Assembly (NCBI GenBank): GCA_914767715.1 | Contig: OU612075.1 | Coordinates: 18,664,001 to 18,728,000, forward strand | Reading direction: 5' to 3' | DNA length: 64,000 nucleotides | Origin: Membranipora membranacea | Lineage: Eukaryota > Bryozoa > Gymnolaemata > Cheilostomatida > Membraniporidae | Shown here: piece by piece, positions 2,664-18,714 of the stretch | Position numbering within the stretch: the stretch's first letter is position 1 | How the letters are laid out: each line of letters begins with the position of its first letter | Translations under genes and position numbers: made by a program | Notes under the pieces: generated by a model | What the model was told of the DNA's origin: nothing | Database searches by the model: none | What the model saw: the letters and a program-made list of their open reading frames with translations, nothing else

Positions 2664-3182
2664 TCAGCTAGTGTGGTCCCATATCTGGACCAAATGTGGA
2701 GGTGATGCTTGATTCGAGGCCATATGGACAGGCGCTAGAGAAAGAGTGAGATTACCACGGGTAGAATTATCACCAGTAGAGGGGTTGTCCTCGCTCGGAC
2801 ATCCCCCAAACAGGGAGTAGTACATTTTTAATTGTCCATTGCGGGTATTGGCACTGAACGGGGCGCCGCTCGCTGGGGGCTCGTTCAATATAGCCTCATA
2901 TTCCATTTTACTTATACAGTATCTAGCGAGTTTCTCTGCAGACGTATCGGGATTTTTATAGAACTCAGAATGTACACAGCGACCATATCCCTCCTCTTCC
3001 AATTTTCTCATGGTGCCGAAAATGTATTCAGTTGGAAAGCGTGCTTTGGACGAACATGAAAAGTCAATCTGTCGCCTACACACAACCTTACCCTTCATGC
3101 GTAATATTTTCCTCCGAAGTTTAAACTCAGGGTCCAGTTTGTTTCCATATGATACTTCTGATCTGTTACCAAACAATGCTTC
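2664..3182 (-). CDS. Array unit 12: alternative terminal exon with G[YF]G/FYKNP domain
   Basis: This is the last exon of the array in transcript order. A TTGTCAG acceptor precedes 3,182 and the exon opens in phase 0. It encodes 172 residues and a TGA stop. It carries the domain signature: a RRKIL-type start, a helix-like stretch, EEGYG, then FYKNP and a following Y. Its C-terminal extension beyond the domain is about 60 residues, rich in Ser, Asn and Pro. No in-frame ATG lies between the upstream stop at the element (3,227-3,253) and the acceptor, so it needs an upstream exon. Its selector-like element is the best match in the array to the docking site. Confidence 0.8.
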   Translation of the reverse strand, partial: EALFGNRSEVSYGNKLDPEFKLRRKILRMKGKVVCRRQIDFSCSSKARFPTEYIFGTMRKLEEEGYGRCVHSEFYKNPDTSAEKLARYCISKMEYEAILNEPPASGAPFSANTRNGQLKMYYSLFGGCPSEDNPSTGDNSTRGNLTLSLAPVHMASNQASPPHLVQIWDHTS

Positions 3183-3226
3183 CTGACAATTGAAATATCG
3201 TACTTTGCAAGGGAGTCAGTTCATCT

Positions 3227-3253
3227 TCAGTTTGGTCTTTAAAGACAGGTGGT
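3227..3253 (-). promoter_or_regulatory. Selector-like element of unit 12
   Basis: On the minus strand this 27-base element differs from the reverse complement of the docking site (13,255-13,288) by one substitution and one missing A in 28 positions. Its core reads TTTAAAGACCAAACTGA. It lies 45 bases upstream of the unit 12 acceptor. Confidence 0.75.
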
Positions 3254-3385
3254 ATTTTGCAAAGAGCATTGTAACATTTTTATTGGAATATAAACTCAGT
3301 CGAATGGACACAACCAGTGATGCAACACACTTTAGGAACTTATTTACAACAAAGTATTATCCACCAGGTAGATTCAGCGCCCATA

Positions 3386-3472
3386 CAGTGCCGGGATAGC
3401 TGGTAGTCGCATTCCAATATCAGACACTATGGTTGATAATAAAATGCTTCTACCAGCTATCCTGACGCAGTT
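3386..3472. repeat. Foldback element A, copy 2
   Basis: CAGTGCCGGGATAGCTGGTA on the left is mirrored by TACCAGCTATCCTGACGCAG on the right. It is related to 1,244-1,340. A third, more diverged hairpin with the same GTAGTGGCATTCC inner block follows at about 3,498-3,632. Confidence 0.7.
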
Positions 3473-3970
3473 TGAGGGCTTAAATAACCCAGCGGTAGTA
3501 CAAAATGCCCAAACTCTGCCATGGATATTGGTAGTGGCATTCCATTATTAAATACAGCCCACCCAACACTGTCTTGGTTTGCTGTGGTAGAAAACTGAAT
3601 GCCACTACAAGCAACCTGGGTGGAAATTGAGCAGTAAAACTAGATAGGCTTAATGATCTATATACTAATACTGGTTCATAGCAAATGGTACTAATACTAA
3701 AATTTTAATTCCATGAAGCATGCTACAGAAAACTTTCAGGACAGCATTGGCAGATATGTGTCTTTTTACCCATTGGGCAACTGTTTTCGAAAATATTCTA
3801 TTATAAATTCTATGTACATATAATTTGAAAGTCATGAAATGTAGGACTAGGCTATGAATTAAATGTCTAAAATGTAATGGGGATGGAGAGGATACAGCGT
3901 TGAGTAATCTTGATTCCAAGATTCCATCGAGTGGCACACCCACAGATGGGCGTGTAAACTAGCTATTAGA

Positions 3971-4333
3971 CTAGGAGGCTTGTCGGTCTGCGAAGCTATT
4001 ATACAATTCCATACATTGTTCCGCCTTGGAACGAGTTACACATCCAAGTGGCCGAATGGATTCAAGCTGGTCATGATATTCTTGATTTGTGATACCATGT
4101 TCTACCAATTTCCTGTTTGTTAAATTAGGATTCTTGTAAAACACTTCATTATGCAGCACCCCAAAACCTTGGTCAGCAAGGTTTGACATCGCAGACAAAA
4201 TGCTTTCCTTTGTCACCCCTTTTTTCAGCCGGCTTTGAGCATTGAAGGTGTCAATAATCTGCCTGAAGGGTACAAATTTTCCCGCACCAAGCAGTATTTT
4301 CTGAGGGATGGATTTTGAGTTTCGCGGTCGCAT
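3971..4333 (-). CDS. Array unit 11: alternative terminal exon with G[YF]G/FYKNP domain
   Basis: The exon follows a TTTCTAG acceptor, opens in phase 0 and encodes 120 residues and a TAG stop. Here the first codon after the acceptor happens to be ATG, but sister exons have none, so I treat it as internal. It carries the signature QKILLGAGKF ... DQGFG ... FYKNP and ends with ELYNSF. No donor of usual form precedes the stop. The function is unknown; the order of predicted helices and the G-F-turn resemble a winged helix, which is an inference. Confidence 0.8.
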   Translation of the reverse strand: MRPRNSKSIPQKILLGAGKFVPFRQIIDTFNAQSRLKKGVTKESILSAMSNLADQGFGVLHNEVFYKNPNLTNRKLVEHGITNQEYHDQLESIRPLGCVTRSKAEQCMELYNSFADRQAS

Positions 4334-4390
4334 CTAGAAACCAATTTTAAAGTATTTGAGTTCAAAGAATTGATGCCAATGAATCAAACA

Positions 4391-4410
4391 GCAGTCTTGG
4401 TTTTATAGAT
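4391..4410 (-). promoter_or_regulatory. Selector-like element of unit 11
   Basis: On the minus strand it reads ATCTATAAAACCAAGACTGC. It can pair with the docking site at 13,255-13,288 with one bulged base, and the A to G change in CCAAGACTG is wobble-compatible. It lies 58 bases upstream of the unit 11 acceptor. Confidence 0.7.
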
Positions 4411-4769
4411 TCCGTGGTCAGCAACAGTGTTTATTTAAATGTTACTGGTATATTCACCCTGTCAGCTAGCTACCAGCCAGTATACTATGGATGGGCAGGT
4501 TGAAAATGAGGCAATATTTTTTAATAAATTATATTTATTCTGAACCCCACAAAAGGGAAATACGATGGACTACCAAAATGAGACTAAATTCACAGAAGTA
4601 TTATGCAGATTATTCACAAATGTTGCAAAATACTCTCACACCGACTATAATTTTTTTGGTTTTTATACACAAAACTACAAATTGGACCCTATATTTGCGT
4701 CAATGATAGGTATTCTTAGTCTCTACCATACCGTACCATATCATTGTCTATGGTCTCTACTAACACCTC

Positions 4770-4853
4770 TATAGGAAGATTTTTAGCTCAAATTTAACCC
4801 TATATTTGGAGTTGCCCTCTCTCCATTTGGGCACTCTTCAACACACGCGACCT
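4770..4853. repeat. Single-arm relic of the 2,030-2,541 MITE family
   Basis: The text GGAGTTGCCCTCTCTCCATT and its flanks resemble the arm GGAGTTGTCCTCTCTCCAGT of the element at 2,030-2,541. The opposite arm is not seen. It lies just past the stop of unit 10. Confidence 0.55.
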
Positions 4854-4864
4854 TTGCTAATTTA

Positions 4865-5224
4865 TCAGAACTTTATCCTTTTACCATAGATGAGATTGTG
4901 ATTGTTGACACATTGATCCCACAACCCTGGCTTTGTGCTAAACCCATAGGCCGCTGCAGTGGTATCTAAAGATCTTTGATACTCATTTTGGTTCACATTA
5001 ATCTCAACCAACATTTCAGCAGTTAATTCTGGATCTTTGTAAAATACTCCATCAAGTAATGTTCCAAATCCCTGTTTGGCCAAATCTTCTAAAGCTGAAT
5101 GGATTGCTTGGTGGTTCCTTAGATCTCTTAAGCGGTAATCAATACGAAACACTATCTGACGAAGTTGCACAAACTTCCCACGTGTCAGCATTATTTTTCG
5201 ATGCAGGTACCTCGTTGTATCGAG
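4865..5224 (-). CDS. Array unit 10: alternative terminal exon with G[YF]G/FYKNP domain
   Basis: It follows a TTTTTAG acceptor, opens in phase 0 (first residues LDTTRYLHRKIM) and encodes 119 residues and a TGA stop. The signature is RKIMLTRGKF, KQGFG, FYKDP. An internal ATG (5,191) sits at the same place in units 8, 9 and 10 but is absent from most units. Unit 10 is closest to units 9 and 8, so these three look like recent duplicates. A possible donor GGTAAAAG lies six codons before the stop, so splicing onward cannot be excluded. Confidence 0.8.
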   Translation of the reverse strand, partial: LDTTRYLHRKIMLTRGKFVQLRQIVFRIDYRLRDLRNHQAIHSALEDLAKQGFGTLLDGVFYKDPELTAEMLVEINVNQNEYQRSLDTTAAAYGFSTKPGLWDQCVNNHNLIYGKRIKF

Positions 5225-5472
5225 CTAAAAACATACCAAGCCTTCACATGAGCAAGGTCTGTTATAAAAAGGGCTTGAGAAAATTAACACTTGACTAGAT
5301 TCTCCTATTCTGCCCTGTAACCAGTGTTTCTCTTATCAAATTCTGAAGGCTTCTATCTATATAAGTTATGTGAGGCATTCCTCATTCAAAATTATATTCT
5401 GAAACTATATAGCGTTACACCTACTACCTTATCAACACAAACTAAAACTAAAATTATTTGAATCAGCAGCAT

Positions 5473-5493
5473 GAAATCAGTTCTGGTTTTTAC
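5473..5493 (-). promoter_or_regulatory. Selector-like element of unit 10
   Basis: On the minus strand it contains AAAAACCAGAACTGATTTCA, identical over 20 bases to the unit 9 element. It lies about 250 bases upstream of its acceptor, farther than in most units, and only about 45 bases past the stop of unit 9. Confidence 0.65.
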
Positions 5494-5537
5494 TCAGGCT
5501 TTAGTTGAAACTGTATGTCATAAATATCTAGTTACAA

Positions 5538-5897
5538 TTATTTACTGTACAGTTCGTCATGGCGGTCAAGGCATGCCTGCCACTTCCCAGGCCTCTGGCT
5601 GAAACCAGCATATGCAGAAGCGGCATTCAACGAATCCCTATACTCTTCATTCGTAACATGAATATTATCCAACTGTAGATTGTCAACATTAGTGTTTTTG
5701 TAAAACACCCCATCGGCCCAAGTGCCGAATCCATGTTTGGCCAAATAGTTCAAAGCAGCATTAATTGTTTGTTTCAAGTGTTTCATCCCTATCAACCTTC
5801 TCTGTCCATTATTGAATCGAAATAGAATTTGAAGGATTTGCAGAAATTTTCCACGCGTGAGCATTATTCTTCGATACAGACCCTCCTCCGGATCGAG
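5538..5897 (-). CDS. Array unit 9: alternative terminal exon with G[YF]G/FYKNP domain
   Basis: It follows a CATTTCAG acceptor, opens in phase 0 (LDPEEGLYRRIM) and encodes 119 residues and a TAA stop. The signature is RRIMLTRGKF, KHGFG, FYKNT (the Pro of FYKNP is replaced), and it ends DELYSK. The stop lies only about 45 bases from the next selector-like element, which leaves very little 3' untranslated sequence unless that element is itself transcribed. Confidence 0.8.
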   Translation of the reverse strand, partial: LDPEEGLYRRIMLTRGKFLQILQILFRFNNGQRRLIGMKHLKQTINAALNYLAKHGFGTWADGVFYKNTNVDNLQLDNIHVTNEEYRDSLNAASAYAGFSQRPGKWQACLDRHDELYSK

Positions 5898-6130
5898 CTG
5901 AAATGATACCGATGTAGAATTGATAATTCTGTTGATGACTTACTGCTCAAAGGGGTATCTTTCTTTTGTAATATCATCCTTTTTTTAGAATGATGGTCAT
6001 GTAAAACTTGTTTAATATCACGTCACCATGATTGATGAACTTATCAAGTTGACCATTTTAACTTGTAACATCCGTAGATACAAAAGATCAATGTTTGGAA
6101 AGATTGCTGAAAAGATGCCAACAAAAGCGT

Positions 6131-6154
6131 GAAATCAGTTCTGGTTTTTATGAC
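6131..6154 (-). promoter_or_regulatory. Selector-like element of unit 9
   Basis: On the minus strand it reads GTCATAAAAACCAGAACTGA followed by TTTC. It lies about 234 bases upstream of the unit 9 acceptor and 50 bases past the stop of unit 8. Confidence 0.65.
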
Positions 6155-6203
6155 TTGTCCATAAATGTGAGCATTTTCAAGTAAGACATCTGCTAGAGGA
6201 GTC

Positions 6204-6578
6204 TTACTCTTTCTCTTTGACCTGACTGTACAGCTTGTCATGAACCACTGAGCACTTTTCATAGAGATCCTGCCTAGAACTGAACCCTGGGTATATCGTG
6301 GAGGTATCCAGTGACACAGCATATTCATTTACAGAAACACCAATGGCATCTAATTCCTCAGCTGTCATATGGGGATTTTTAAAGAACACACCATCATACA
6401 GTGTACCGTACCCCTTGTTGGATAAATCATTCATTGCTGATGTTATAGACTGTTTGAGATTTTCCATACTTATTCGCTTGCGTTGATTTGTACTGAAGCG
6501 AAATATAACTTGACGAATTTGGAGAAATATCCCTCGGGTTAGCATTATCTTGCGGTAGAGTGCAGGCTCGGGATCAAA
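6204..6578 (-). CDS. Array unit 8: alternative terminal exon with G[YF]G/FYKNP domain
   Basis: It follows a TTGTTTCAG acceptor, opens in phase 0 (FDPEPALYRKIM) and encodes 124 residues and a TAA stop. The signature is RKIMLTRGIF, NKGYG, FFKNP, with a C-terminal DKLYSQ. I could not find a clear selector-like element upstream, unlike its neighbours. Confidence 0.8.
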   Translation of the reverse strand, partial: FDPEPALYRKIMLTRGIFLQIRQVIFRFSTNQRKRISMENLKQSITSAMNDLSNKGYGTLYDGVFFKNPHMTAEELDAIGVSVNEYAVSLDTSTIYPGFSSRQDLYEKCSVVHDKLYSQVKEKE

Positions 6579-6860
6579 CTGAAACAATGACCAATTTAAC
6601 ATCAACTGTTATGCTTTGATCGAAAATGTATTTTTAGAGTTATTTTTGTCGTCATGGTTATTACAGATCAGGTGGCAGCTATTCAATAGACATAGATATT
6701 GTGTAATAATGTGCCCTGTTCATTCTGTGCAAAGAAAATAGTGTGTGTTAGTTTCAAAGGTTTCTTTTTACCACATTGATCATTTTGGCTGGCTCTAATT
6801 GGTTGCAGTGAAATAATGAATGCATCTCATTTCTTAACAATAAAGTGAAAAATTAAAATG

Positions 6861-7120
6861 GTTAAAGACTACCCAAAGACCATTCTCTGCATTATGTTGT
6901 CACTATGAACAGGAAGTGCAATATAAGAAACAAGCACTTCCTGCTCATAGTGACATCATAATGCAGAGAATGAGAGTTACCTTCCCTTATGGGAGGTACT
7001 CCTCCACCATCAATATTCATGCCAATTAGAGCATTGAATTTTTACCATGCAAATCTGACATGACATTGTCATAAGTAACTGCCTGACTAAAACATGCATT
7101 GGTCTTTGGGTAGCCTTTAA
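6861..7120. mobile_element. Foldback MITE between units 7 and 8
   Basis: The outer inverted repeats are TTAAAGACTACCCAAAGACC and GGTCTTTGGGTAGCCTTTAA. An inner hairpin (6,881-6,918 with 6,933-6,972) pairs over about 38 bases. No coding sequence is present. The text AAAGACC inside the repeat resembles the selector core but lies in a different context. Confidence 0.8.
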
Positions 7121-7218
7121 AAAGCTTGAATATTACTCATGAATGTGTTTCTATTTCCACCCCTCTAGCGGCTTCCTAAACCTGTTAGTTCATATTTTAG
7201 TAAAAGTCTATTTTGAGC

Positions 7219-7584
7219 TTATAATGTGGTTGCATTGACTTTAAATAATGAGTTGTAGAGCTGCAATATGTCAGCTTCCCTTTGTGCTGTGACAGTGAAT
7301 CCTCTCTTGTGTGATGCAGGGGCTAACCTGCCTCGGTAAAATTCAGGTTGCAGTCCATAAACCGCAAGCTGCGATGCGGTTAAAGAAGGATTTTTGTAAT
7401 ATCGGCCTTTGATAAAGTAACCGTATTGTTTGTTCGATAGATTCATCATGGCCTGCTCGACTCGGCTACGTAAATCTTTGACATGGAATTTAGTGAATAA
7501 AGAATAGCGTACTTGTGTAGCATTCACAACTTTTCCATATGATCTCAAGACGACTCGCTCCAGTTCCAATATAGGGAGTACAGT
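7219..7584 (-). CDS. Array unit 7: alternative terminal exon with G[YF]G/FYKNP domain
   Basis: It follows a CATATTTCAG acceptor, opens in phase 0 (TVLPILELERVVL) and encodes 121 residues and a TAA stop. The signature is LRSYGKVV, NKQYG, YYKNP, then LAVYGLQ and LYNSLF near the end. It has no in-frame ATG in its N-terminal half, so it depends on an upstream exon for a start codon. Confidence 0.8.
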   Translation of the reverse strand, partial: TVLPILELERVVLRSYGKVVNATQVRYSLFTKFHVKDLRSRVEQAMMNLSNKQYGYFIKGRYYKNPSLTASQLAVYGLQPEFYRGRLAPASHKRGFTVTAQREADILQLYNSLFKVNATTL

Positions 7585-7630
7585 CTGAAATATGACCCAT
7601 AAAAATTGCAGAAGACTGACAATAATTGCA

Positions 7631-7652
7631 GAATCTGATCCTTATAGACAGG
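7631..7652 (-). promoter_or_regulatory. Selector-like element of unit 7
   Basis: On the minus strand it reads CCTGTCTATAAGGATCAGAT. Relative to the complement of the docking site the changes A to G and C to T both keep G-U pairing. It lies 47 bases upstream of its acceptor. Confidence 0.75.
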
Positions 7653-7987
7653 GTAGTGGTCAGTCTTATCTTGGTGCACAAGTTTTAATCAGGTTGAATT
7701 TGAATGATTTCTATCTGGATTCTTTGCGCTCGAGTCATGTCATTGAACTCAGCTATAGTCATTTGACTTAGTTTTCCAAGTTTATATCACAATCTACAGT
7801 CATTGTTTCATTCAAATGCAATTGATATTATTGGCATTTTGTCAAAACCACAACTGTTACATTGTATACATTTATTTTTGAGAACAGTTGAAATAAAGGT
7901 AAAACATATTTACAATGTATATATGTATAGGTTATGGGTCTATTTTGGAGTAGATAATGTCACTTTGACATGTTTGACAAAGTTGCT

Positions 7988-8359
7988 TCAGCTTTTCCTA
8001 CTGATTTGGAAAACAGGAAAGAGAATTTTGACCTCATCCTCATCAGCTTGAGGTGAAAAGTTGGATGCAGGTTTTAAGTTCTTCACAGGTGATGGTGAGG
8101 TAATGTACTGGTGGTATTCTGACAAAGTTAATCCATACTGAAGCAGCTTGTTATCTTTAATGTTCGGGTCCTTGTAGAAATGTCCGTTGAAATGGCCATA
8201 CCCGTTCAGAGCCATTTTAGTCATTATATCCCTAATGCGCTGCATCAGGCCACCGACACGATGCTTTGCACTGACAGCATTTGAGATTTGACGGGGATGA
8301 ACTGACATCCCATGCGATCGAAGTATTTTCGATACAACTTCCTCTTCAGAAAGAGCAGA
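7988..8359 (-). CDS. Array unit 6: alternative terminal exon with G[YF]G/FYKNP domain
   Basis: It follows a GGTTTTTCAG acceptor, opens in phase 0 (SALSEEEVVSKIL) and encodes 123 residues and a TGA stop. The signature is SKILRSHGM, LNGYG, FYKDP, then LLQYGLT. An AATAAA on the minus strand lies about 120 bases past the stop, consistent with a terminal exon. Confidence 0.8.
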   Translation of the reverse strand, partial: SALSEEEVVSKILRSHGMSVHPRQISNAVSAKHRVGGLMQRIRDIMTKMALNGYGHFNGHFYKDPNIKDNKLLQYGLTLSEYHQYITSPSPVKNLKPASNFSPQADEDEVKILFPVFQISRKS

Positions 8360-8424
8360 CTGAAAAACCGAAAACAAATTTATTTCACTCAGGGCTCTTG
8401 ATCAAAATAAAACTGAATTGTGTC

Positions 8425-8447
8425 ATTGTTCTGGTCCTTTTAGACTA
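8425..8447 (-). promoter_or_regulatory. Selector-like element of unit 6
   Basis: On the minus strand it reads TAGTCTAAAAGGACCAGAAC, matching the docking complement at 12 of 14 core positions. It lies 66 bases upstream of the acceptor. Confidence 0.6.
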
Positions 8448-8530
8448 GTTCTATAACCCCATCTTGTAAAGCTCAATTTGTATTTTATTCCAAAAATTCA
8501 TATGCCATATCACAAATGACTCTTGAAAAT

Positions 8531-8923
8531 TTATTTATTATTTTTATTCTTGTTCCTATTGTCATGACTGTATGTATGTGCATAGATAGATTGTTCAATG
8601 CCAAGGATCTTAGTGGTCAATGATTTGGTGCGGTAAATGGGTAATTGCTCTATATCTACAAAATACTGCATCATAAACTCGTCTCTTGTGACAAAATATA
8701 TATTAAGCTTAGACTGGTCTATATGAGGATTTTTGTAAAATCTCCCATCTTCAAAATAACCAAAGTTGTCATTGCGAAGCTCCGACATGGCGTCGTTTAT
8801 TGTCTTACTGTTTTCTTTTGAGCGGAAATTCCTGCTCAGAGATTGAGCATAGGCCCACGGTGTTATCGACTTGCCCGGGGACAGGAGAATAGATTTTGCC
8901 GTTTCACATTGGCTGAGGACAAA
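8531..8923 (-). CDS. Array unit 5: alternative terminal exon with G[YF]G/FYKNP domain
   Basis: It follows a TTGATTGTAG acceptor, opens in phase 0 (FVLSQCETAKSIL) and encodes 130 residues and a stop. The signature is SILLSPGKSIT, NDNFG, FYKNP. It is most like unit 4, sharing LLSPxKSITP and a C-terminal LPxYR block. AATAAA words overlap the stop on the minus strand, as expected of a terminal exon. The exon extends about 135 bases upstream of its first in-frame ATG. Confidence 0.8.
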   Translation of the reverse strand, partial: FVLSQCETAKSILLSPGKSITPWAYAQSLSRNFRSKENSKTINDAMSELRNDNFGYFEDGRFYKNPHIDQSKLNIYFVTRDEFMMQYFVDIEQLPIYRTKSLTTKILGIEQSIYAHTYSHDNRNKNKNNK

Positions 8924-8974
8924 CTACAATCAAATTCATCATCCTTCAAATTACAGACGGATTGAATTTAAAAC

Positions 8975-9000
8975 ATCAGCAGTCACTGGTCTTTAGAGAC
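8975..9000 (-). promoter_or_regulatory. Selector-like element of unit 5
   Basis: On the minus strand it reads GTCTCTAAAGACCAGTGACT, matching TGTCTxTAAAGACCA of the docking complement at 14 of 15 positions. It lies about 52 bases upstream of the acceptor. Confidence 0.7.
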
Positions 9001-9241
9001 AAATTTGGTTACTATAAGCTTGCATTCACAGCAGTGAATCCCACCACTGAAGGTGAAAAACTATTGAGCAAAATCTCATGATTAAATGCCCAGTTCTCAG
9101 TGAAAACATTATTGAAGTTAATTTGGATTATAAGATTTATTTATAAATCTATGTGCAATTTGGGAGTATTAAATCATCAAAAATAGTCTCCATTAGTACC
9201 AACTGCATCCATCAACCAGAATGGAAATGTTAAACAACCAG

Positions 9242-9595
9242 TTATTTTTTTAGCAACATCAACTTCTCAGCCTCAAGGACACTGTCAGATATGAATTGAT
9301 TGCGATATGCAGGCAGTCCTTTTCGATCTATGTTGTATTGTATCAGATACTCAGCGACCGTGATTGAATATACACCAAGCTCTACTTCACTTTTATGTGG
9401 ATCCATGTAAAACCTTCCAGCGTTGAAGTCCCCATAGCCTTTTGAGTGTAGATCACGCATGACATCATTGATTGTCCACCTATTCTCTCTGGTGCGGTAC
9501 TTTGGACTCAATGAGTGAGCATAAGACGTAGGAGTGATTGACTTGCTAGGTGACAGAAGTATGGCCCTTGCTGTTTCATAGCGATTGATAATGTA
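9242..9595 (-). CDS. Array unit 4: alternative terminal exon with G[YF]G/FYKNP domain
   Basis: It follows a TGATTGTAG acceptor, opens in phase 0 (YIINRYETARAIL) and encodes 117 residues and a stop. The signature is AILLSPSKSIT, SKGYG, FYMDP. It is the closest relative of unit 5. AATAAA words on the minus strand lie about 100 bases past the stop. Confidence 0.8.
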   Translation of the reverse strand, partial: YIINRYETARAILLSPSKSITPTSYAHSLSPKYRTRENRWTINDVMRDLHSKGYGDFNAGRFYMDPHKSEVELGVYSITVAEYLIQYNIDRKGLPAYRNQFISDSVLEAEKLMLLKK

Positions 9596-9644
9596 CTACA
9601 ATCACATTCATTTATTCATTGATCGTGCACAAGTTCAAGATTTA

Positions 9645-9670
9645 GCAGCATTGGTCTCTATACACAGGGG
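9645..9670 (-). promoter_or_regulatory. Selector-like element of unit 4
   Basis: On the minus strand it reads CCTGTGTATAGAGACCAATG. It matches the docking complement through CCTGT, TATA and AGACCAA; the A to G change in TATAGAG keeps G-U pairing. It lies about 50 bases upstream of the acceptor. Confidence 0.7.
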
Positions 9671-9833
9671 TGTCAACAAAGTCAGTTCATGCTCGAAGAG
9701 TATTTTTTGATCTTTGATTTCAAGCCTTTCAACAACATCATTTCACTGTTGTTCTTAATCAGACAAGAATCATATTTTGCCATCTACATTGAGGAAGGGT
9801 GCCCTACAGAAGACATCCTAACCATATAATTCA

Positions 9834-10238
9834 CTAGTTGTCATGGTGTGGGTCCCCAGAGTGTTTAGCTGCCGCTGGGCGTTTGATTGGAAAAAGCAAG
9901 CTCTCAAGATAATGTATTTCATCTTTCCGCAGCTGTTCAGATTTGAGAAAATGTGATGACTTCTTGTTTAGAGTTGCATATTGCCTGTCGTACATTTCTT
10001 TTGAAAGGCCATAATGTTCCAACTTCTCAGCCGTTACAAGGGGATTCTTGTAAAATCGGCTTTGATTTGTGCATCCATACCCCGTAGAGGCCAACAACTC
10101 CATGCTGTCATAGATTCTTTTGGCAAGACCCTTGCCCCGGTAGGCAGGTGGAAGGGAATTGATGATTCCAACATTGACTGATGACTTTCCTTCCAGAATG
10201 AGGATTTTTCTGGCCAAATCTAAGTCACTGATATCAAC
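9834..10238 (-). CDS. Array unit 3: alternative terminal exon with G[YF]G/FYKNP domain
   Basis: It follows a TCGTTTCAG acceptor, opens in phase 0 (VDISDLDLARKIL) and encodes 134 residues and a stop. The signature is RKILILEGK, STGYG, FYKNP, then LEHYGLSKEMY. The first in-frame ATG lies after half the domain, so an upstream exon is required. Confidence 0.8.
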   Translation of the reverse strand, partial: VDISDLDLARKILILEGKSSVNVGIINSLPPAYRGKGLAKRIYDSMELLASTGYGCTNQSRFYKNPLVTAEKLEHYGLSKEMYDRQYATLNKKSSHFLKSEQLRKDEIHYLESLLFPIKRPAAAKHSGDPHHDN

Positions 10239-10293
10239 CTGAAACGATGATAGCAGTTTAAGAGCTTGTGTCAAATTTAAAGGAGCGATAACG

Positions 10294-10320
10294 TCATCAG
10301 TTCTGGTCTTTATGGACTGG
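10294..10320 (-). promoter_or_regulatory. Selector-like element of unit 3
   Basis: On the minus strand it reads GTCCATAAAGACCAGAACTG then A, matching the docking complement at about 18 of 20 positions, with one of the two changes (A to G) wobble-compatible. It lies 56 bases upstream of the acceptor. Confidence 0.75.
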
Positions 10321-10557
10321 ATCTGCACTTGTAATCAATCGAGTTTCTAGTAGCCATGGAATCATGATTGAATGCTGATGCGATTTACCCATTGCCCATT
10401 TTGCCACTGATCATTGCAGTTCCACTCAATTATGTTTGTCTTATATAAGTCAAAAGCTAAGAAACTTACAATGGGTGCCGCTTCTCATTGCTGTTTTTAT
10501 TCAAATTTACGACTCATTTAATAAAATGTGTTTAAAATAGATGCCTCAGTTATTTAT

Positions 10558-11061
10558 TCAAAACTTTTGCATTGGTAATTTATTCACTAGGGGAGGGTCC
10601 ATAGCTCCAACATCGTCAGTAAATGGGCTAGGAGCCATCTGATAATCTTCACCAAGAAGCTGCGAGTTCTGTAATAGTACTAGGTTCACCCATACTTCTG
10701 AAGTTATTCCAAGATGATTCAACTTCTCCTTGGCCGAGAAATTCAATTCGTCCCAGTAATGGCGCTGGAAGACATGTTTTTTGCCTATTGTACGTCGCTT
10801 TCCAAAACCCATAAGTTCCAACCTTTCTAGAAAATGATGGCCAATAGCAGCCGAGGTTACAACTCTTCCATTGCATGTTCCTCTAGGTAAAAATCTGCCA
10901 CGCTGCAGATTTCTTGAAGTAAGCAGGTCCCGGTGCTGTAGGATGTTCTTTATAGAGTAACAGTATTCCTTCAAGAATCGCTCATTATTGAGCATCACTC
11001 CAGGAAATTCAACTGGCTCAGATGTTAGTGGAGTACTTTGAAGTCTCCCTAAGATGTCAAT
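10558..11061 (-). CDS. Array unit 2: diverged alternative terminal exon
   Basis: It follows a CTTTTTAG acceptor, opens in phase 0 (IDILGRLQSTPL) and encodes 167 residues and a TGA stop. It is the most diverged unit: the G[YF]G motif is present (ELMGFG) but FYKNP is replaced by a FQRHYWDE stretch, followed by the usual LNHLGIT. Both ends are longer than in the other units. AATAAA words on the minus strand overlap the stop and recur about 60 bases on. Its upstream selector-like element is weak. Confidence 0.75.
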   Translation of the reverse strand: MDILGRLQSTPLTSEPVEFPGVMLNNERFLKEYCYSIKNILQHRDLLTSRNLQRGRFLPRGTCNGRVVTSAAIGHHFLERLELMGFGKRRTIGKKHVFQRHYWDELNFSAKEKLNHLGITSEVWVNLVLLQNSQLLGEDYQMAPSPFTDDVGAMDPPLVNKLPMQKF

Positions 11062-11147
11062 CTAAAAAGCGATTCAGTGGATTTTGTTTAGATGGTCATT
11101 TGAAGAGCTTTTTTATATCCAATCAACTCACTGAATCACATGTATCA

Positions 11148-11170
11148 CCGCTTAGGTCTTATTTTGAGCA
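11148..11170 (-). promoter_or_regulatory. Weak selector-like element of unit 2
   Basis: On the minus strand it reads CTCAAAATAAGACCTAAGCG. Only ATAAxGACC agrees with the docking complement. It lies 87 bases upstream of the acceptor. I regard it as uncertain. Confidence 0.3.
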
Positions 11171-11530
11171 GATGAGTCTAGGTTTTTGCTGAGGATAAAA
11201 CAATCTACTGTACCTTTTCTAGTACTATTGCCTGAAGCATGTAATTTAATTTGCATATTTGACAGAAAAACAACAGTTGAGAATCACCATAACCTTAAAC
11301 ATTAAAATAAGAGCTTATCTGACAATATGATATTTGTATACAACAAATAACTGTGCTAAAATTTAAAACCAAAGACAACACTTATTTCTTTTATAAAATG
11401 ATTGGATTGATTGTAGAATGAGAATAGTATTTTTATATAGATTTTGTTTGCTTGGCGTAAAAAGGAAGCCATCCGTAAGCATGAGGAAAAATACTAAAAG
11501 CAAATCATAAACATTCTGGGGATAGAGTTT

Positions 11531-12103
11531 TTACCATCCTGCTTGGTAAATAGGAGGACCACTTTCATGTGTCTGGGAATCATCAGAAAGAGTTTCATCA
11601 ATTGAGAGTTCAGGGGTAAAGACAATTGGCTTTGGTCGAATCTCCTGGTGGAATTCGTTCGTTTGCGAAATGTTTGGCCTTTCAGGAAACTTTTTTGGTG
11701 ATACTTTGACCGGGGTTCTTTCATCATTCTTGACAGCGCCTTTCATTGCAAAGCTCATCATGCTATTAAACCCATACAAAGATTCATGAATTTCATTGTG
11801 CTCCTCTTTTTTGGCTGGGGTGATGCCGTATCTTGTAATATTTGAATGGAAAGCCCCTTGATACGCTTCTATGGCAATATGGTATGGTGTAAGCATGTCA
11901 GACGATAGCATGGGGTTTTTATAGAAAGTGGAACTTCGTCTCATTCCGTAACCACGTTCTGCAAGGTTTTGCATAATGTCCAATATCTTTTGGTGGAACT
12001 GAGACCGCAAGCGGCAATCAAGGCTATATTTAATCTGTGATAGTGTCACAAATCGTCCTGGGCTGATCAGGATCTTTCTGCTGAATCTAGTGTCAGTCCA
12101 TTT
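11531..12103 (-). CDS. Array unit 1: first alternative terminal exon
   Basis: This is the first array exon after the constant region. It follows a TTTCTGTAG acceptor, opens in phase 0 (KWTDTRFSRKIL) and encodes 190 residues and a TAA stop. The signature is RKILISPGRF, ERGYG, FYKNP, then LTPYHI. A long Ser/Pro/Glu-rich tail follows the domain, and a GGTAAAAA donor-like word overlaps the stop. Confidence 0.8.
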   Translation of the reverse strand, partial: KWTDTRFSRKILISPGRFVTLSQIKYSLDCRLRSQFHQKILDIMQNLAERGYGMRRSSTFYKNPMLSSDMLTPYHIAIEAYQGAFHSNITRYGITPAKKEEHNEIHESLYGFNSMMSFAMKGAVKNDERTPVKVSPKKFPERPNISQTNEFHQEIRPKPIVFTPELSIDETLSDDSQTHESGPPIYQAGW

Positions 12104-12150
12104 CTACAGAAACAAGTGCGCAGCGTTCAGAAAATAGCGAATCTACCTTG

Positions 12151-12180
12151 AGCTCAGAGTGGTCTTTATAAACTTGGTGG
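12151..12180 (-). promoter_or_regulatory. Selector-like element of unit 1
   Basis: On the minus strand it reads CCACCAAGTTTATAAAGACC followed by ACTCTGAGCT. It shares CCACC, TATAAAGACCA and CTGA with the docking complement. It lies about 48 bases upstream of the acceptor. Confidence 0.7.
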
Positions 12181-13254
12181 GTGTCAGTATCAGTTTAATG
12201 TCGAGTTAAAACCCTCGGTGTTTTGCTTGTCTAATAGTTAGTTTAGTTACTCTATGCGCATAAGCGTGTTAACGTTGCCGCCATCTAGATGGTGTATGGG
12301 TGGGAGAAGAAGAGAATGGACATCATCATATTGCTATTTACTTCCTAATATCAGTGGTATACTGAGTTCCTTGTCGGAGATCTACACTCAATTATAGCAA
12401 AGCCTACCAAGTAGGGGTTTCATAAGGGTACCATTCAGTTAGACAAGCCCAAGGGTACATCAAATTCATTAGATAGATCTAGGCCAGTTAATACAGTGAC
12501 TTTTATCCGAAACTTGTACAGCCACTCTGATTGGAAGCGAATTCTGTTGACAACTGCAAATCATAAAGTTCCTGCTTATTTTTGAATAAATAGGCCTAAA
12601 TGAGTATAAATACTACTAAGAACACTATATAAGTATCCAGCTTCAAATCAGGTAGTAGGAGGGTGGTGCCAAGCATTATTCAACAAGTTCTTCAACAAGA
12701 TCGTTACAATTACCTTCCATAAGAAGTTGTGAAGCAACCATGGCTCAAGCTTTGCCCAAGGTCTTGAACATTACTAGAACATAAGCACCTTATACCACCA
12801 GACCAGAATCCTTGTATCAAGGAAACTATGCTACGAGTTATTTGTCAAACTTGTTTCATTGTACCAGCATGAATAAAGTAATGGATTTCTTTTTCTATCA
12901 CACTGCCTATCATTGTATAATCATTGTCTTCTTCATGGCAGCTTTGCACTTCATGCTTTTGAAGGTCACACCATAACGCAGTGATTTACACTTGAAAATT
13001 TGCTTGATCCTCCTCTCACAAATGGATAGGTCTCTACCTTAGGCATGTCGATGGCCGAGATTCGCTGAAGCTACATTTTGCGGTTTCTGTTGTTGCAACG
13101 GTGTACGGATTACCAACAGAAGCCTAATTTAGATTTGGTCATTTGAGGCGATGTGTACTATCTCATCTTTTCAGTGATACATGTGACTCATATGAGTTAT
13201 AATTTTACTGACTAAAATCCTCCCCATGATGCATTCCATATCAAAACTTTGCCG

Positions 13255-13288
13255 ACCACCTGTCTATAAAGACCAAAACTGACTTCAG
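13255..13288 (-). promoter_or_regulatory. Docking-site-like element complementary to the selectors
   Basis: On the minus (transcript) strand the core reads CAGTTTTGGTCTTTATAGAC and continues AGGTGGT. It is the only copy I found in the array region in the opposite sense to the selector-like elements, so the transcript can pair it with them. It lies in the 3 kb intron between the constant-exon donor at 15,097 and the first array acceptor at 12,103. Insect Dscam exon 6 uses the same order: constant exon, one docking site, then variable exons each with a selector. The core GTCTATAAAGAC is nearly palindromic, but the flanks GACCAAAACTGA fix the orientation. Pairing has not been tested. Confidence 0.7.
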
Positions 13289-14149
13289 CTGAGTGAAAAA
13301 TACGCAACCAAAAGCTAAGTGCTGTGCAAAAAGTTCTTGTTTTAAATAGTTGAAGGGAACCAATGTTGCTTCATGAGAACTACACAGTATATCTTTGATA
13401 TAATTCTACTTATCATCTCAGGACTAAATTGTACCTCATGTGCTTTTATGTGCAATTATCACGCTAAATGAATGCTGCAAAGTTTTTTGAACCAAGGTTG
13501 GACCAAGATGAATGGTTTACTCACTACGAATTACATCATGAAAATTGCCACACATGGTTATTATTTCTAAATGACTTGAAGCACAGTGGACAGTGGACTG
13601 TAATTCTCTACTTATAGCTCAAGTGCAGTTACTTTATTTTTGAGAACCTGATCACATGTTGTCTTTATATGTTATCCTTTCCACATTGAGGTAATGCCAG
13701 TTGAGTAAATTATAATTTAGGAGTTGTAAGCATGTTTCAACAAGGCCTGAACCTTGTGGTTATGTTGATTAAGGTCCTCACAATAGCTCTGCATTGCAAC
13801 TTCATGTTTTCATATTATCACTGTCAGCTACATATATGTATATATACACTTCATTCACTTAATCTTCTTGTCGGATGTCTCCCATCCAATTGTTAGATTT
13901 TTACACAGGTAGTTCTCATGATGCAAAACCAAAGGCCCGAATGAGTAGCACTATTTACAGTTGGATTCTGAATCAGTGGCATAGCAGTTAGCTTTTCGTT
14001 GGATGGAAGAATCTGCCATACTTTGAGAAAAAAAAAACTATTCGATATTTACTGTTTAAAACCTTGATAATTTCAACCACAGGTCACCTGCGAAAAATGT
14101 TGCAATGGTCTATCAACTGTACAAAATCTGCTTGAGATTATCCTGTTTA

Positions 14150-14213
14150 CAATAAACAGGATAATATCAAGCCAATGAACTCCCTCTTTGAGGAAGAGGG
14201 AGTTCATTGATCA
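14150..14213. repeat. Two abutting hairpins in the array intron
   Basis: CCTGTTTACAATAAACAGG lies inside a longer inverted repeat (GCTTGAGATTATCC with GGATAATATCAAGC). It is followed directly by a second, near-perfect hairpin, CAATGAACTCCCTCTT with AAGAGGGAGTTCATTG. The second hairpin belongs to a dispersed family with a copy at 37,024-37,062. Confidence 0.7.
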
Positions 14214-15096
14214 AGCAGCGAAATCAAAAATTTGGGCATTTAGTGAATCAACTTATTGGAACCAACATGATACATTGATGGCAAACAGACTATACCTACT
14301 TCAACAGCTTTGACTCTTCAGTTTAAATTGAGCAAGAGATGACAACTAAAAAAGCTTCATATCTAGCTCATTTATTTTTCGTGATGAAAAACCAAGATCT
14401 GTTCACTTCTCCTATTTTCATAGCCAAGAAGAGAATCAATTTTTGAAACAAAAATTTCCTAGTCTTTAAATTTTCATAACCATAAACACATAGAAAAAAA
14501 CCTATTTATTATAAGTTTTTTTATAAGTTTGTGGTCATGACAGTGGAAAATAACCAGTTATTAAAATTCTATAATCATAGCACATGGATTTGATCCAATA
14601 ACCCTATAACAAAACCTAGACCATTCCAGTTTTTGAACCTGTCGACATCTAATGTGACATTACATATTGTTGATTGACAGTTGATAGACCATGACAACAG
14701 CAAAGCTATACTGAGACGTATCATATGGACTCAGCGACATATCCGACATCTCATTCCCGTTTCACTCTACAAATTCACTTATTAACTTCTTAAATAAGCA
14801 GCAGCTGAGTGTGATGATGTCTCAGTAGAGCCTTCTCAGATCTCATCATGACAGCCTTATGCAGCAACCACTGGATGATTGCATGCCTAGAGATGGCAAT
14901 GATGGACCTAAGGTTGTGTGTAAAAGCTCAGATTGTCTGAGCCACATAGGTGTTATATATTATACTCTATAATACATATACTACATATATATATATTATA
15001 TACTATACCATATAATAACTGCATGGTCCGACCGCTTACACAAACTATTTTACCAAAAAAACCTGCACTAGTTATAATTGAACTTTTATTGCTTAC

Positions 15097-15326
15097 CTTA
15101 GCTCCGGGATTGGAAGCAGCAGCTGGTGATTTTTTGGCAGGTGGTCCGGTTAGTGATTTCTTGAGGCTGGTTACGTTTCCGATGGCGAGCTCAGGGGGTG
15201 TGTAAGTTTGAAGAGGTCCAGGGATCAGTTGTGATGAGGTTCCGGGCATACTGGTAGAAGTTCGATCTCCAGTACTAAACGTGCTCATCAGTGCGTCGTT
15301 TGGATCGTTAGTTGGTTCAAAATGGT
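15097..15326 (-). CDS. Last constant exon, feeding the array
   Basis: The acceptor is TATTTTCCAG in phase 1. The donor is GCTAAG then GTAAGC in phase 0. It encodes about 77 residues, Ser/Thr/Pro-rich with two Lys-rich patches (SLKKSLTGPPAKKSP). The phase-0 donor is what every array exon needs. No other phase-0 acceptor with a coding exon was seen before the array. Confidence 0.75.
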
Positions 15327-18300
15327 CTGGAAAATATAAATACTTATTTGACGTGTCTCTTTAGAAGAAGGTCAAAGCTCATTTCCGTACTGTACTGTTG
15401 CAAGCCTTCACTTGTGCTACAATCCTCAATGATTTCCTTTTTTCATTGAAGCGCTGGAAATTTTCCATTCTTGTTCGGAAGTCATAAGAGCTGGTTTAAA
15501 AGTAAATTTCTGCTGGGTGAGGTACAAAAAGGAGATAGGTGGGTGATGTCTATGGTTATGTTGCACTACCCATATACTGATGATAGCTGCAGTACCGATT
15601 AAGTAGAAAATCTGTTATACCCTCATTATTGTTACACAAACTAATAGTATACACAACATTTAGGGTTTTGTGAGTACAGATACAAGCGCATATACATTAT
15701 GAAGTTTCATGTAAAGTACATACCACAGCATAGACCTAATATATTAAGTATATTAAGTCTGTGGTACATACATACAAGAGAATCTCATACATACTGACAA
15801 CATAGATAAATACTTGTATGTCAGTAGGCTTGATACACACTCAGAACTCCGCCAGACGTACCAGTGGGCTTGGTTGGGTATACAGCGGGGTTATTACGCT
15901 GCAGAGCCGGAGGAGGCTGTGAGTGTGAGCCATCGAGTTCAATTTTTATTTCAGCGAAGTCATCAATGGGATTGTAGTACACATCCGGCTCCTTTGAGGT
16001 AGCTGGATGTCTCAGAGGCACACCGGGAGATATAGACGCTGAGGCATGGCTGGCATTCTACAAATATGACAGGCGATTGCTATATAATAGTGTGCAACGA
16101 TAAGTTACTTACTTACTTGAAATAGAAAATACAGCTGAATATCAATCTGTCACTGTCACAATAATTTCCCCGCTTTCGAATATTTCAAGTCCAACAAAAC
16201 GGTGTTTTGACTAGCTACGAAACTCGTCCACGCTGTTCGCAGACTAGAGCCAGTCAGCGTTTTATCATGGTCGGTTCAGTAAAGTCAGGGGATGATTCCC
16301 ACCACATAATTTCATCCATATCTGGTCGTAATATACCAGTAGACCGGGATTCCATAATATTAGTTGCAAGAAGGCTTTCTGTAAAACCAGCAGATGCAAA
16401 GTTTGATCATAATGTTGGGGGGGGGGGGGGGGATTAGAGCACCCCTGGTGATTCCTAATGGCTTGCTATTCACATTGCAGGCGACAAATGTGTTATCTTG
16501 TGACTAAGTTAGTGGGCTTAAATCTAGGCCAGACCACCACACTAGCACGGCAATAACAGAAATTATTGTGAGCGTGACATATCTTTGTTTTGCTTGAATG
16601 AACTTCATCTAACTATCAATGATTCCCTTTGGGCTGGCATGTTGACAACTGACAACAGATTATGGGCGTCTCATGTCAAGACCCATCATTAATTACCAGC
16701 TATCTATCTGACTAGGAGCTAAAAATACTTCATCTAATGTCAGATAAGACTGACAATCACTGCCTGCCTACATAAAGAGGCACTTTGCATAGACTGTCAG
16801 TTTTATTGATCATGACAATATGTTACACGTGTCACAAACTAAAATGCCACAAATCACCCAGTCACATGATGGCAAGCTAACAAGGTGCCATATTTTCACA
16901 CTATCCCTCGTTAGCAACCCAAGTTATTGGCTGTAATTTTCTGATGTGACTGTGATGAATGGGAAGTTAGCCTGAGAAATTGGGTGGAACTAGACTTGGA
17001 CAGGCTACATTAACCAAAAAAGCTGCTGAGCCCAACATTAAAAGTGATGAATTCTTGCTTAGATTTGCACAAAATGTACCTTGTGTTTGCTTGATGGAGG
17101 AGGCTGGTCAAAGTCTAAAGAGTGCTGGTTGATTTCATTAGCTGGAATGATTGGGATATCATCCCGATCTGGACTAGATAAGGTTGTCTCAAACTCTACA
17201 TCCTGTGGTTCCATGGATATAACATTTTTGTGTCCCTAAAAATCATAACAAATAATGCACAGTGGGTGTCATATTATCTCTAGTGTGATCATGGGACTTA
17301 GTGGTTTATATTCCCAAATGGGCATTATCCCTGTCAAACAAAGCGAGCCCTATCAAAGCTATATAATAGATACAACACAACTCATGACAACCAGCAGACA
17401 TAATATAAGTTTTAAAAATAAGGGTGCCATAATAACCGGCTATAACCAGCTGTGGTTTACGCAATAAATGTATCCATTCAGTCTGGTCTGGTGTGCCAAT
17501 GAATATTTATGCATGTCAGTGTCATGTCTCCTAAAAGTGATATTAGCTTCATCTGACAGTCACAGCTTTTCATTGTCCTGCGATCTTCCAAATGCGACAC
17601 CAGATTAAATTTAAACTATTACTTTTCATTAAAATGACTACACTGAGCACTGACTCCAGTAGTATAGAACACTACTTACCCTCTGTAGTTGTGGTACAGG
17701 AGGTGTACGTTTGTGTGCTGAATTACTACTGGTCAGTGGGCGAGCGTGTGTCGCTGTAGATGTGGTAAAGGATCGCTCAGAGTCGTGGTCTGAATCTAAC
17801 AACAGAAACATATCGCTTGATCTAATCTGCCATATTGGATAAGTGACATAAGCTGGCCTAGGTTACCTCTTAACCGAAGCCAAAAATTGTCCAGCTAATA
17901 AGTGGTTTAAGGACTTGATGGCAATTAATGTAATAACTTCAAAACATTAACAGCATAAGAGTTCGGCCTACCTGTATTGGGGGGATGCGTAGAGCTAGTA
18001 ACTCGTTTTGGCGGCACCAGTTTGCGTTTCTTTCCTACTTGGTATGTCGATGGCAGCCCAACTGAACAGTTCTGTTTATGGTCCTCCATGTCGTGAGAGT
18101 AAAAGGCTTTATAGTTACATTTCTCACATTCAAAATACCAACTGAGTTTTTGTGTGTAGCCATCATGTGGCAGTGACATATCTGTGTGTTTGTGGCCACT
18201 GGGTGTGGTGGAGTCCACTATCTGTTGAAGAAGATGCCGCAAGGCGATGGACAGGTTGTGTTGCCCTGCGTCCTAAAATAGAAGAACAACCATCCAGATG

Positions 18301-18714
18301 TACCCATTACGTGTAGGAAATAAGTTTTTTTCTCCACAATCTTAGGTCAGGCATCCTCTAAAGCAACAGACTTGACTCAGATAGGTATTTTTTCTTGATA
18401 AATGAAATATCAGCTTTCAACACCCCACCTTATGTGGCCACTACCGTATTCAGCTCCTCACCTTTGAATATTATCAGTTAAGCAAGGATCAGAAAGAAAA
18501 AAACTTCAGTGTCTTTTCGTAATTGTTGAGTTGCGATTTCCTACTGCAAACCATGGCAAGTCCTCTACTATATGAATACTTTTTCTTTTTTATTTAAGTG
18601 CAGAAGATCAACCATCAGGAATCGGTGGAAGCGTGGAGCATTAGTGATTTGGCCTGTGCTATAAGCGACATTTAACTAATGTACTCACCAACATAGCTGT
18701 GCAGGTGATAAAAT
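15097..18714 (-). CDS. Constant region of zinc-finger gene with swappable C-terminal domains
   Basis: Six proposed exons, in transcript order, are 18,714-18,689, 18,272-17,972, 17,795-17,680, 17,235-17,080, 16,057-15,862 and 15,326-15,097. All junctions have GT and AG and compatible phases. They encode about 335 residues. Residues 51-71 hold a C-x2-C-x12-H-x3-C zinc finger, and about ten residues later GKKRKLVPPKR looks like a nuclear localisation signal. The rest is Ser/Pro/Thr-rich and probably disordered, with a SUMO consensus (IKIE) in exon 5. The final exon ends in AAG then GTAAGC, phase 0, matching all twelve array exons. I do not recognise the gene. The general plan, a shared N-terminus plus alternative C-terminal domains, is that of insect lola and mod(mdg4), but no BTB domain is seen. 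A nuclear regulatory role is inferred. Confidence 0.7.
15862..16057 (-). CDS. Constant exon 5 with SUMO consensus
   Basis: The acceptor is TTTGTAG in phase 0 and the donor is GTACGT in phase 1. It contains DDFAEIKIELDG, which includes the psi-K-x-E SUMO consensus IKIE, in otherwise disordered Pro/Ser-rich sequence. Reading past the donor meets a stop at 15,821, which supports the splice. Confidence 0.7.
16057..17079. other. Intron of the zinc-finger gene
   Basis: No coding exon is seen. It includes a run of about 14 G on the plus strand near 16,419-16,432. Confidence 0.5.
17080..17235 (-). CDS. Constant exon 4
   Basis: The acceptor is ATTTTTAG and the donor GTACAT; both are phase 0, giving 52 residues. 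The exon is acidic with a Pro-rich end (FDQPPPSSKHK). No domain is recognised. Skipping it would keep the frame. Confidence 0.65.
17680..17795 (-). CDS. Constant exon 3
   Basis: The acceptor is TTGTTAG in phase 1 and the donor is GTAAGT in phase 0. It encodes about 39 residues rich in Ser, Thr and Pro and ends PPVPQLQR. No domain is recognised. Confidence 0.65.
17972..18272 (-). CDS. Constant exon 2: C2HC zinc finger and basic stretch
   Basis: The acceptor is CTATTTTAG and the donor GTAGGC (phase 1). It encodes a Leu-rich helix-like segment (IALRHLLQQIV), then FECEKCNYKAFYSH with a following H and C that complete a single finger, then GKKRKLVPPKR. It is the only exon of the constant region with obvious folded structure. 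Confidence 0.75.
18689..18714 (-). CDS. Proposed first coding exon (Met-Leu) of the zinc-finger gene
   Basis: ATG TTG is followed at once by GTGAGT, a good donor in phase 0 that fits the phase-0 acceptor at 18,272. An in-frame TAG lies about 50 bases upstream with no other ATG between, so this ATG would be the start. CTCTACAG before 18,714 could be an acceptor. The assignment is tentative because only two codons are involved. Confidence 0.4.

Follow-up and report, generated by a model that had tools for sequence, protein, structure and literature searches.

In a 64-kilobase (kb) stretch of the genome of the cheilostome bryozoan Membranipora membranacea (the window; positions 18664001–18728000 of contig C11, in a genome of 339,339,785 bases on 18 contigs), constant coding exons on the minus strand are followed by an array of twelve related exons, each ending in its own stop codon. 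Exons were sought by reading through the minus strand of window positions 2,400–26,200. We consider it probable that the locus is one gene with twelve alternative terminal winged-helix exons, the choice among them being made by long-range base-pairing between an intronic docking element (dock) and selector elements upstream of the variable exons.

The constant part comprises six minus-strand exons that join into a single open frame of 1,005 nucleotides (nt), or 335 codons, with GT donors and with AG acceptors at exons 2–6; the 5′ end of exon 1 is not delimited. As the original prediction had it, the last constant exon (15326–15097) leaves at 15,097 by a phase-0 donor, AAG|gtaagc, where the encoded protein part ends in GAK. 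The constant part carries one zinc-finger-like C-x2-C-x12-H-x3-C motif, whose cysteines and histidine are invariant in all five rows of an alignment representing three distinct N-terminal parts; no Pfam family exceeded the cut-off in its 335 residues. A genome search found no second copy of this finger. Besides the gene itself it returned one weak match (expectation value (E) 0.24), an exon beginning GYKQKLKWTLECDRCDF with AG and GT borders elsewhere on the same contig (L015 1459–1602), which may be distantly related to the constant finger.

The twelve variable exons (units 1–12) lie head-to-tail on the minus strand. All open in phase 0 after an AG, each has its own stop, and their products align as one family with a mean column identity of 25% and an FYKNP-like core in common, so that both frames and alignment bear out the array of paralogs first described. 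Pyrimidine tracts are poor at units 4 and 5 (0.35 and 0.41, versus 0.65–0.76 at the five constant acceptors). Donor-like sites are scarce within the units: nine score 6 or more, versus 17.1 expected (3 of 200 shuffles as few), and a single one, in unit 7, scores 7, where 3.3 are expected (35 of 200 shuffles as few). Because the constant donors themselves score 6–7, some unit may still contain an internal donor.

Nine of the twelve units have no in-frame Met ahead of the domain; their earliest one falls within it. In unit 11 a Met is the very first residue, in unit 2 residue 23, at the beginning of the aligned domain, is a Met, and just before unit 8 there is an ATG in frame. A reading as twelve independent genes in tandem, each equipped with a start of its own, would agree with the stop codon in every unit and with the Met at or before the domain start in units 2, 8 and 11. 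Separate starts are unlikely for the other nine, in which no Met is placed so as to yield the complete domain; tandem genes are rejected for at least these nine. Since gene models of a second bryozoan, described below, also join such domains to a constant N-terminal part, we give this explanation almost no credence.

AlphaFold2 predicts a winged-helix domain for unit 10, with an alpha-beta-alpha-alpha-beta-beta fold and a predicted local distance difference test score (pLDDT) of 91. Pfam searches with the twelve units reached a best E-value of 0.036, scattered over nine weak families, each matched by only one unit, and a PDB sequence search with the units gave no match. The first 95 residues have a net positive charge in 11 of the 12 units, which is compatible with predicted DNA binding and goes no further than that.

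Of 785 candidates drawn from 5.8 billion sequences, seven proteins matched a profile of the twelve units at E ≤1. On visual inspection, P0001, P0003 and P0005 represent the array locus or nearly so. Over the aligned part, P0002 is 66% identical to unit 1, and P0006 and P0007 are 74% and 62.5% identical to unit 2. P0004 is a shortened version of P0002, the relative of unit 1, without a stretch inside the tail, and is perhaps a splice variant in another species. No related sequence was found in viral_contigs, searched with P0006 only, and a profile-based locus search yielded no conserved stretch.

When the constant part fused to unit 10 served as query, four proteins were returned, all from one 61-Mb contig of another cheilostome bryozoan, Watersipora subatra. 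Two of the NCBI gene models, X5 and X7, have 409 residues in common ending in GIK and diverge at the corresponding lysine. The C-terminus of X5 is nearest to unit 7 (45%, E 6e-26) and that of X7 to unit 2 (27%, E 8e-4). Although these are gene models in which only two array-type C-termini are represented, they contain the predicted constant-to-variable junction and support it independently of the original prediction. Models X1 and X2 (P0010, P0011) have a different but related N-terminal part, with 240 shared residues followed by two C-termini of quite different make-up that have no significant match to the units. The genome of the window holds no clear counterpart of this N-terminus; besides the gene itself, two weak matches (E 2 and 4) were obtained. 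A search with Watersipora P0008, scoring the 7,991 candidates that shared most words, gave the same four proteins and nothing in other taxa. No Pfam family exceeded the cut-off in P0008–P0011, a PDB search with P0008 gave no useful match, and the AlphaFold2 model of the whole of P0008 has a pLDDT of 35.

The original prediction also placed a reverse-complementary element at 13,255–13,288, before the array. A test run without any motif, in which the best duplex energies of a 30-nt window with the 12 regions upstream of the units were summed, recovered this element. Among 593 windows in the 3-kb intron before unit 1, 13252–13281 ranked first (−363.9, against a mean of −184.8 and a standard deviation (SD) of 29.9), windows overlapping the unit-1 target region being scored 0 for that region. 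Across 2,767 windows over 18.7–2.1 kb, with target regions reaching no more than 320 nt upstream of an acceptor, ranks 1–4 went to the dock and shifted versions of it (best z −6.6), the next place reaching z −3.0. Neither shuffled intron sets (mean −224.8, SD 8.3; 0 of 300) nor shuffled docks (mean −233.7, SD 11.0; 0 of 300) were as low as the real sequences. An inverted-repeat search likewise pairs the dock with the selectors of unit 12 (pair I5) and unit 3 (pair I7). The dock is a single intronic element between the last constant and the first variable exon, about 1.8 kb beyond the last constant donor. The stretch between this donor and the dock also contains a 23-nt inverted repeat (14098–14120/14677–14699; 91% complementary, 556 nt apart), whose stem, if formed, would shorten the donor-to-dock path.

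When a 35-nt dock was scanned along both strands of the 64 kb (15,990 windows), the ten best places besides the dock were all on the minus strand before units, in the order 12, 4, 7, 1, 3, 8, 11, 10, 9 and 5. They are followed by three places outside the array (15105–15148 minus, 62153 plus and 58745 plus), behind which the unit 6 selector ranks 15th, whereas unit 2 comes 37th, equal to background. Eleven of the twelve units thus fall within the first 15 places. With a 30-nt dock, the numbers of shuffles (of 300) as strong as the real sequence were 0, 8, 0, 0, 0, 2, 0, 0, 15, 5, 0 and 0 for units 1–12, units 2, 9 and 10 being the weakest; with a 50-nt dock, the corresponding numbers (of 200) were 5, 2, 1, 0, 2, 0, 0, 3, 1, 2, 0 and 0. 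The best duplex of each unit pairs 20–29 of the 30 dock bases, in overlapping registers.

Selectors lie 44–72 nt from the acceptor in nine units, 88 nt in unit 2 (weak), 238 nt in unit 9 and 253 nt in unit 10, slightly adjusting the 45–90 nt for most units and about 235–250 nt for two that had been proposed. The proposal of ten clear elements and a weak eleventh, defined by a common core, is upheld as regards complementarity to the dock, which stands out at 11 of 12 units; the bare core is only mildly enriched. That core, TATAAAGACCA, has 48 matches at ≤2 mismatches versus 31.7 expected (a count reached by 1 of 100 shuffles) and lies within 2 mismatches at the selector in 8 of 12 units. Judged from sequence, the selector signal is complementarity to the dock and not the bare core. 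The region upstream of unit 8 additionally contains a 39-nt hairpin (6881–6919/6934–6972, 95%; I2) and a 21-nt inverted pair (6862–6882/7100–7120, 95%; I13) with a dock-like GGTCTTT piece; these inverted repeats (6862–7120) may be what is left of a mobile element, or may act as a local decoy. Coordinates are collected in Table 1.

Table 1. Predicted exons, docking element and selectors of the locus, in window coordinates; for the variable exons the higher coordinate is the acceptor position
Feature	Position	Strand	Evidence
Constant coding exon 1 (ATGTTG)	18689..18694	-	GT border and frame; start codon inferred; Watersipora N-terminus aligns; 5′ untranslated region not delimited
Constant exon 2, C-x2-C-x12-H-x3-C motif	17972..18272	-	Frame and borders; motif residues invariant
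Constant exon 3	17680..17795	-	Splice borders and frame
Constant exon 4	17080..17235	-	Splice borders and frame
Constant exon 5	15862..16057	-	Splice borders and frame
Constant exon 6, phase-0 donor AAG|gtaagc	15097..15326	-	Splice borders and frame
Docking element	13252..13287 (approximate)	-	Rank 1 in two window scans; shuffles; inverted pairs with selectors of units 3 and 12
Selector of unit 1	12154..12188	-	Window scan, shuffles
Variable terminal exon, unit 1	11531..12103	-	Frame, family alignment
Weak candidate selector of unit 2	11149..11179	-	8/300 shuffles as strong; background rank in window scan
Variable terminal exon, unit 2 (most divergent)	10558..11061	-	Frame, family alignment
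Selector of unit 3	10297..10324	-	Inverted pair I7, window scan, shuffles
Variable terminal exon, unit 3	9834..10238	-	Frame, family alignment
Selector of unit 4	9645..9676	-	Window scan, shuffles
Variable terminal exon, unit 4	9242..9595	-	Frame, family alignment
Selector of unit 5	8979..9010	-	Window scan, shuffles
Variable terminal exon, unit 5	8531..8923	-	Frame, family alignment
Selector of unit 6	8427..8450	-	2/300 shuffles as strong; 15th in window scan
Variable terminal exon, unit 6	7988..8359	-	Frame, family alignment
Selector of unit 7	7628..7664	-	Window scan, shuffles
Variable terminal exon, unit 7 (nearest to Watersipora isoform X5 C-terminus)	7219..7584	-	Frame, family alignment, comparison
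Selector of unit 8	6650..6679	-	Window scan, shuffles
Variable terminal exon, unit 8	6204..6578	-	Frame, family alignment
Selector of unit 9, 238 nt from acceptor	6135..6160	-	15/300 shuffles as strong (30-nt dock); top ten with 35-nt dock
Variable terminal exon, unit 9	5538..5897	-	Frame, family alignment
Selector of unit 10, 253 nt from acceptor	5477..5508	-	5/300 shuffles as strong (30-nt dock); top ten with 35-nt dock
Variable terminal exon, unit 10 (winged-helix model)	4865..5224	-	Frame, family alignment, AlphaFold2
Selector of unit 11	4391..4422	-	Window scan, shuffles
Variable terminal exon, unit 11	3971..4333	-	Frame, family alignment
Selector of unit 12	3227..3254	-	Inverted pair I5, window scan, shuffles
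Variable terminal exon, unit 12	2664..3182	-	Frame, family alignment

Because the selector element contains TATAAA, a shared promoter or protein-binding motif (for example a TATA box or a splicing-factor site), multiplied by unit duplication and with an inverted copy present by coincidence, is a serious rival to dock–selector pairing. Several observations weigh on its side: the core is TATA-like and the units stem from duplication; a distance of 44–72 nt from the acceptor is kept by 9 of 12 elements; and in 12 of 66 intron pairs, versus about 3.4 expected, the best local alignment falls on the selector in both introns. Under a shared motif the dock should be no more than a further copy, replaceable by any selector. 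Likeness among the selectors was therefore gauged with pseudo-docks, the reverse complement of each of 11 selectors, taken at the best of five offsets and scored on the other eleven regions. Seven of the 11 beat all 60 of their own shuffles, a further point for the shared motif, and the remaining four were matched by 1, 5, 5 and 6 of 60. On the same regions, pseudo-docks scored −221 to −291 and the real dock −325 to −342, the dock being stronger in 11 of 11 comparisons, which argues against a merely shared motif. The mild enrichment of the motif alone and the confinement of the ten best dock-scan places to one strand, before units, point the same way. The selectors are thus somewhat alike and, by these scores, far more like the complement of the dock, as would be expected if dock pairing is the feature that has been kept. 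An asymmetry of G-U wobbles has the direction that fits RNA pairing and is not significant (p = 0.12). A simple motif in common, for instance a TATA box, is therefore disfavoured, and we hold it to be quite improbable.

In the mechanism that we propose, nascent RNA would expose the dock first and the selectors afterwards in turn, and the dock would pair with the selector upstream of one unit. Only one selector could be paired at a time, because the dock segments to which the selectors are complementary overlap. Acting in cis, the pairing would loop out the intervening units and draw the chosen acceptor to the donor at 15,097; splicing would then remove the looped units, and transcription would end after the chosen unit or later. 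The choice of unit would also set the stop codon. As translation would halt at the stop of the chosen unit, it would not go on into a second, and exclusivity at the protein level therefore needs no extra device. With these stops and few donor-like sites, pairing would serve choosing rather than excluding. The predicted product is a nuclear transcription-factor-like protein consisting of a constant N-terminal part with a zinc-finger-like motif and one of twelve C-terminal winged-helix domains.

The terminal exons might instead be selected by polyadenylation-site choice and splice-site strength, without RNA pairing. On the side of this explanation are the stop in every unit and an AATAAA downstream of 7 of the 12; such arrays are usually ascribed to multiple polyadenylation sites, according to a passage of PMC3228551. 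The AATAAA signal is only mildly above chance, however, and this explanation leaves the dock–selector complementarity unaccounted for, making it very unlikely in our estimation.

The products of the Drosophila genes mod(mdg4) and lola are nuclear proteins whose C-terminal DNA-binding or zinc-finger parts are exchanged, and their constant part carries a BTB domain. The bryozoan gene resembles them in having constant exons and many alternative terminal coding exons, as seen in the frames and, for two C-termini, in the Watersipora gene models, but its constant part contains neither a BTB domain nor any Pfam family above the cut-off. According to passages of PMC12692577 and PMC3228551, trans-splicing at mod(mdg4) and lola attaches one of many 3′ terminal exons to the constant N-terminal exons; mod(mdg4) uses independent promoters and, in a figure legend, has exons on both strands. 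A bryozoan counterpart would have units, or groups of units, transcribed from their own promoters and the constant pre-mRNA joined to them in trans, with dock and selector pairing between two RNAs. The shared protein architecture suits this explanation, pairing can work in trans as well as in cis, and the selector core is TATA-like. Against trans-splicing, all twelve units lie head-to-tail on the same strand, unlike the mod(mdg4) exons, 4 of 12 units depart from the TATA-like core by more than 2 mismatches, and the selectors are more complementary to the dock than they are like one another. These passages on mod(mdg4) and lola mention no docking element, whereas the bryozoan array has one. We regard trans-splicing as improbable, though the least so of the alternatives, and prefer pairing in cis within one pre-mRNA.

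The cis arrangement is closest to the Dscam1 exon 6 cluster, for which passages of PMC8042237, PMC6071210 and PMC11802352 describe one dock between the last constant and first variable exon and a selector upstream of each variable exon. A single dock, selectors upstream of the variable exons and competition for that dock are common to both. The Dscam1 exons are internal, so that exclusion must be enforced, whereas the bryozoan exons are terminal, with their own stops and few donor-like sites; there are 12 units versus 48, they encode winged-helix domains of a probable nuclear protein, and the bryozoan device is a prediction from sequence. The original comparison with Dscam accordingly stands for the terminal array, the one upstream dock, the competing selectors and the C-terminal swap, and is revised in that pairing would choose and need not enforce exclusion.

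The accompanying claim that no such case had been described did not hold, as mod(mdg4) and lola swap 3′ exons and competing RNA pairings have been reported for further Drosophila genes. Passages of PMC9013439 describe competing RNA structures that serve the 3′ variable region of Drosophila PGRP-LC, with a similar programme in CG42235 and pip; the 3′ variable regions of these three genes are attributed to Pan 2018, RNA 24:1466, as referenced in PMC8052449. The bryozoan array would share with them the choice among transcript 3′ ends by competing RNA pairing; in the bryozoan it is the complementarity that is observed and an effect on choice that we infer. PGRP-LC differs in that its structures also mask an intron-proximal 5′ splice site, as stated in the passages of PMC9013439. 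In pip, as far as its description goes, eight clusters are repeated, compared with twelve single coding exons and one upstream dock here.

Among the papers listed by literature searches, judged by title and abstract opening and with most subscription journals outside their range, none concerned a docking array in a bryozoan or other spiralian. To our knowledge, docking–selector devices of such size are known only from insects. The phylum, the 12-fold terminal array with one upstream dock and the swapping of winged-helix domains would be new. On balance, and with less assurance than for the pairing itself, we favour the wider view that a docking–selector device arisen in bryozoans chooses among twelve winged-helix DNA-binding domains and performs only the choice step, separated from the exclusion to which it is tied in Dscam. 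Were this so, base-pairing in the RNA would determine the DNA-binding domain of a transcription-factor-like protein, one gene could supply as many as twelve regulators, and the range of large docking–selector arrays would widen beyond insects to include Spiralia, an independent origin being the simplest account. The locus would then offer a natural setting in which picking a distant acceptor is all that pairing has to do, so that choice could be studied apart from enforced mutual exclusion, and the bypass of the polyadenylation sites of skipped units would become testable.

Two plus-strand open frames lie in the neighbourhood of the locus. One of 160 residues at 29391–29873, which has no Pfam match, resembles by eye the end of a retrotransposon reverse transcriptase. 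The other, at 22888–23166, contains an SH2 domain (E 1.4e-8) and is probably an exon of a neighbouring plus-strand gene.

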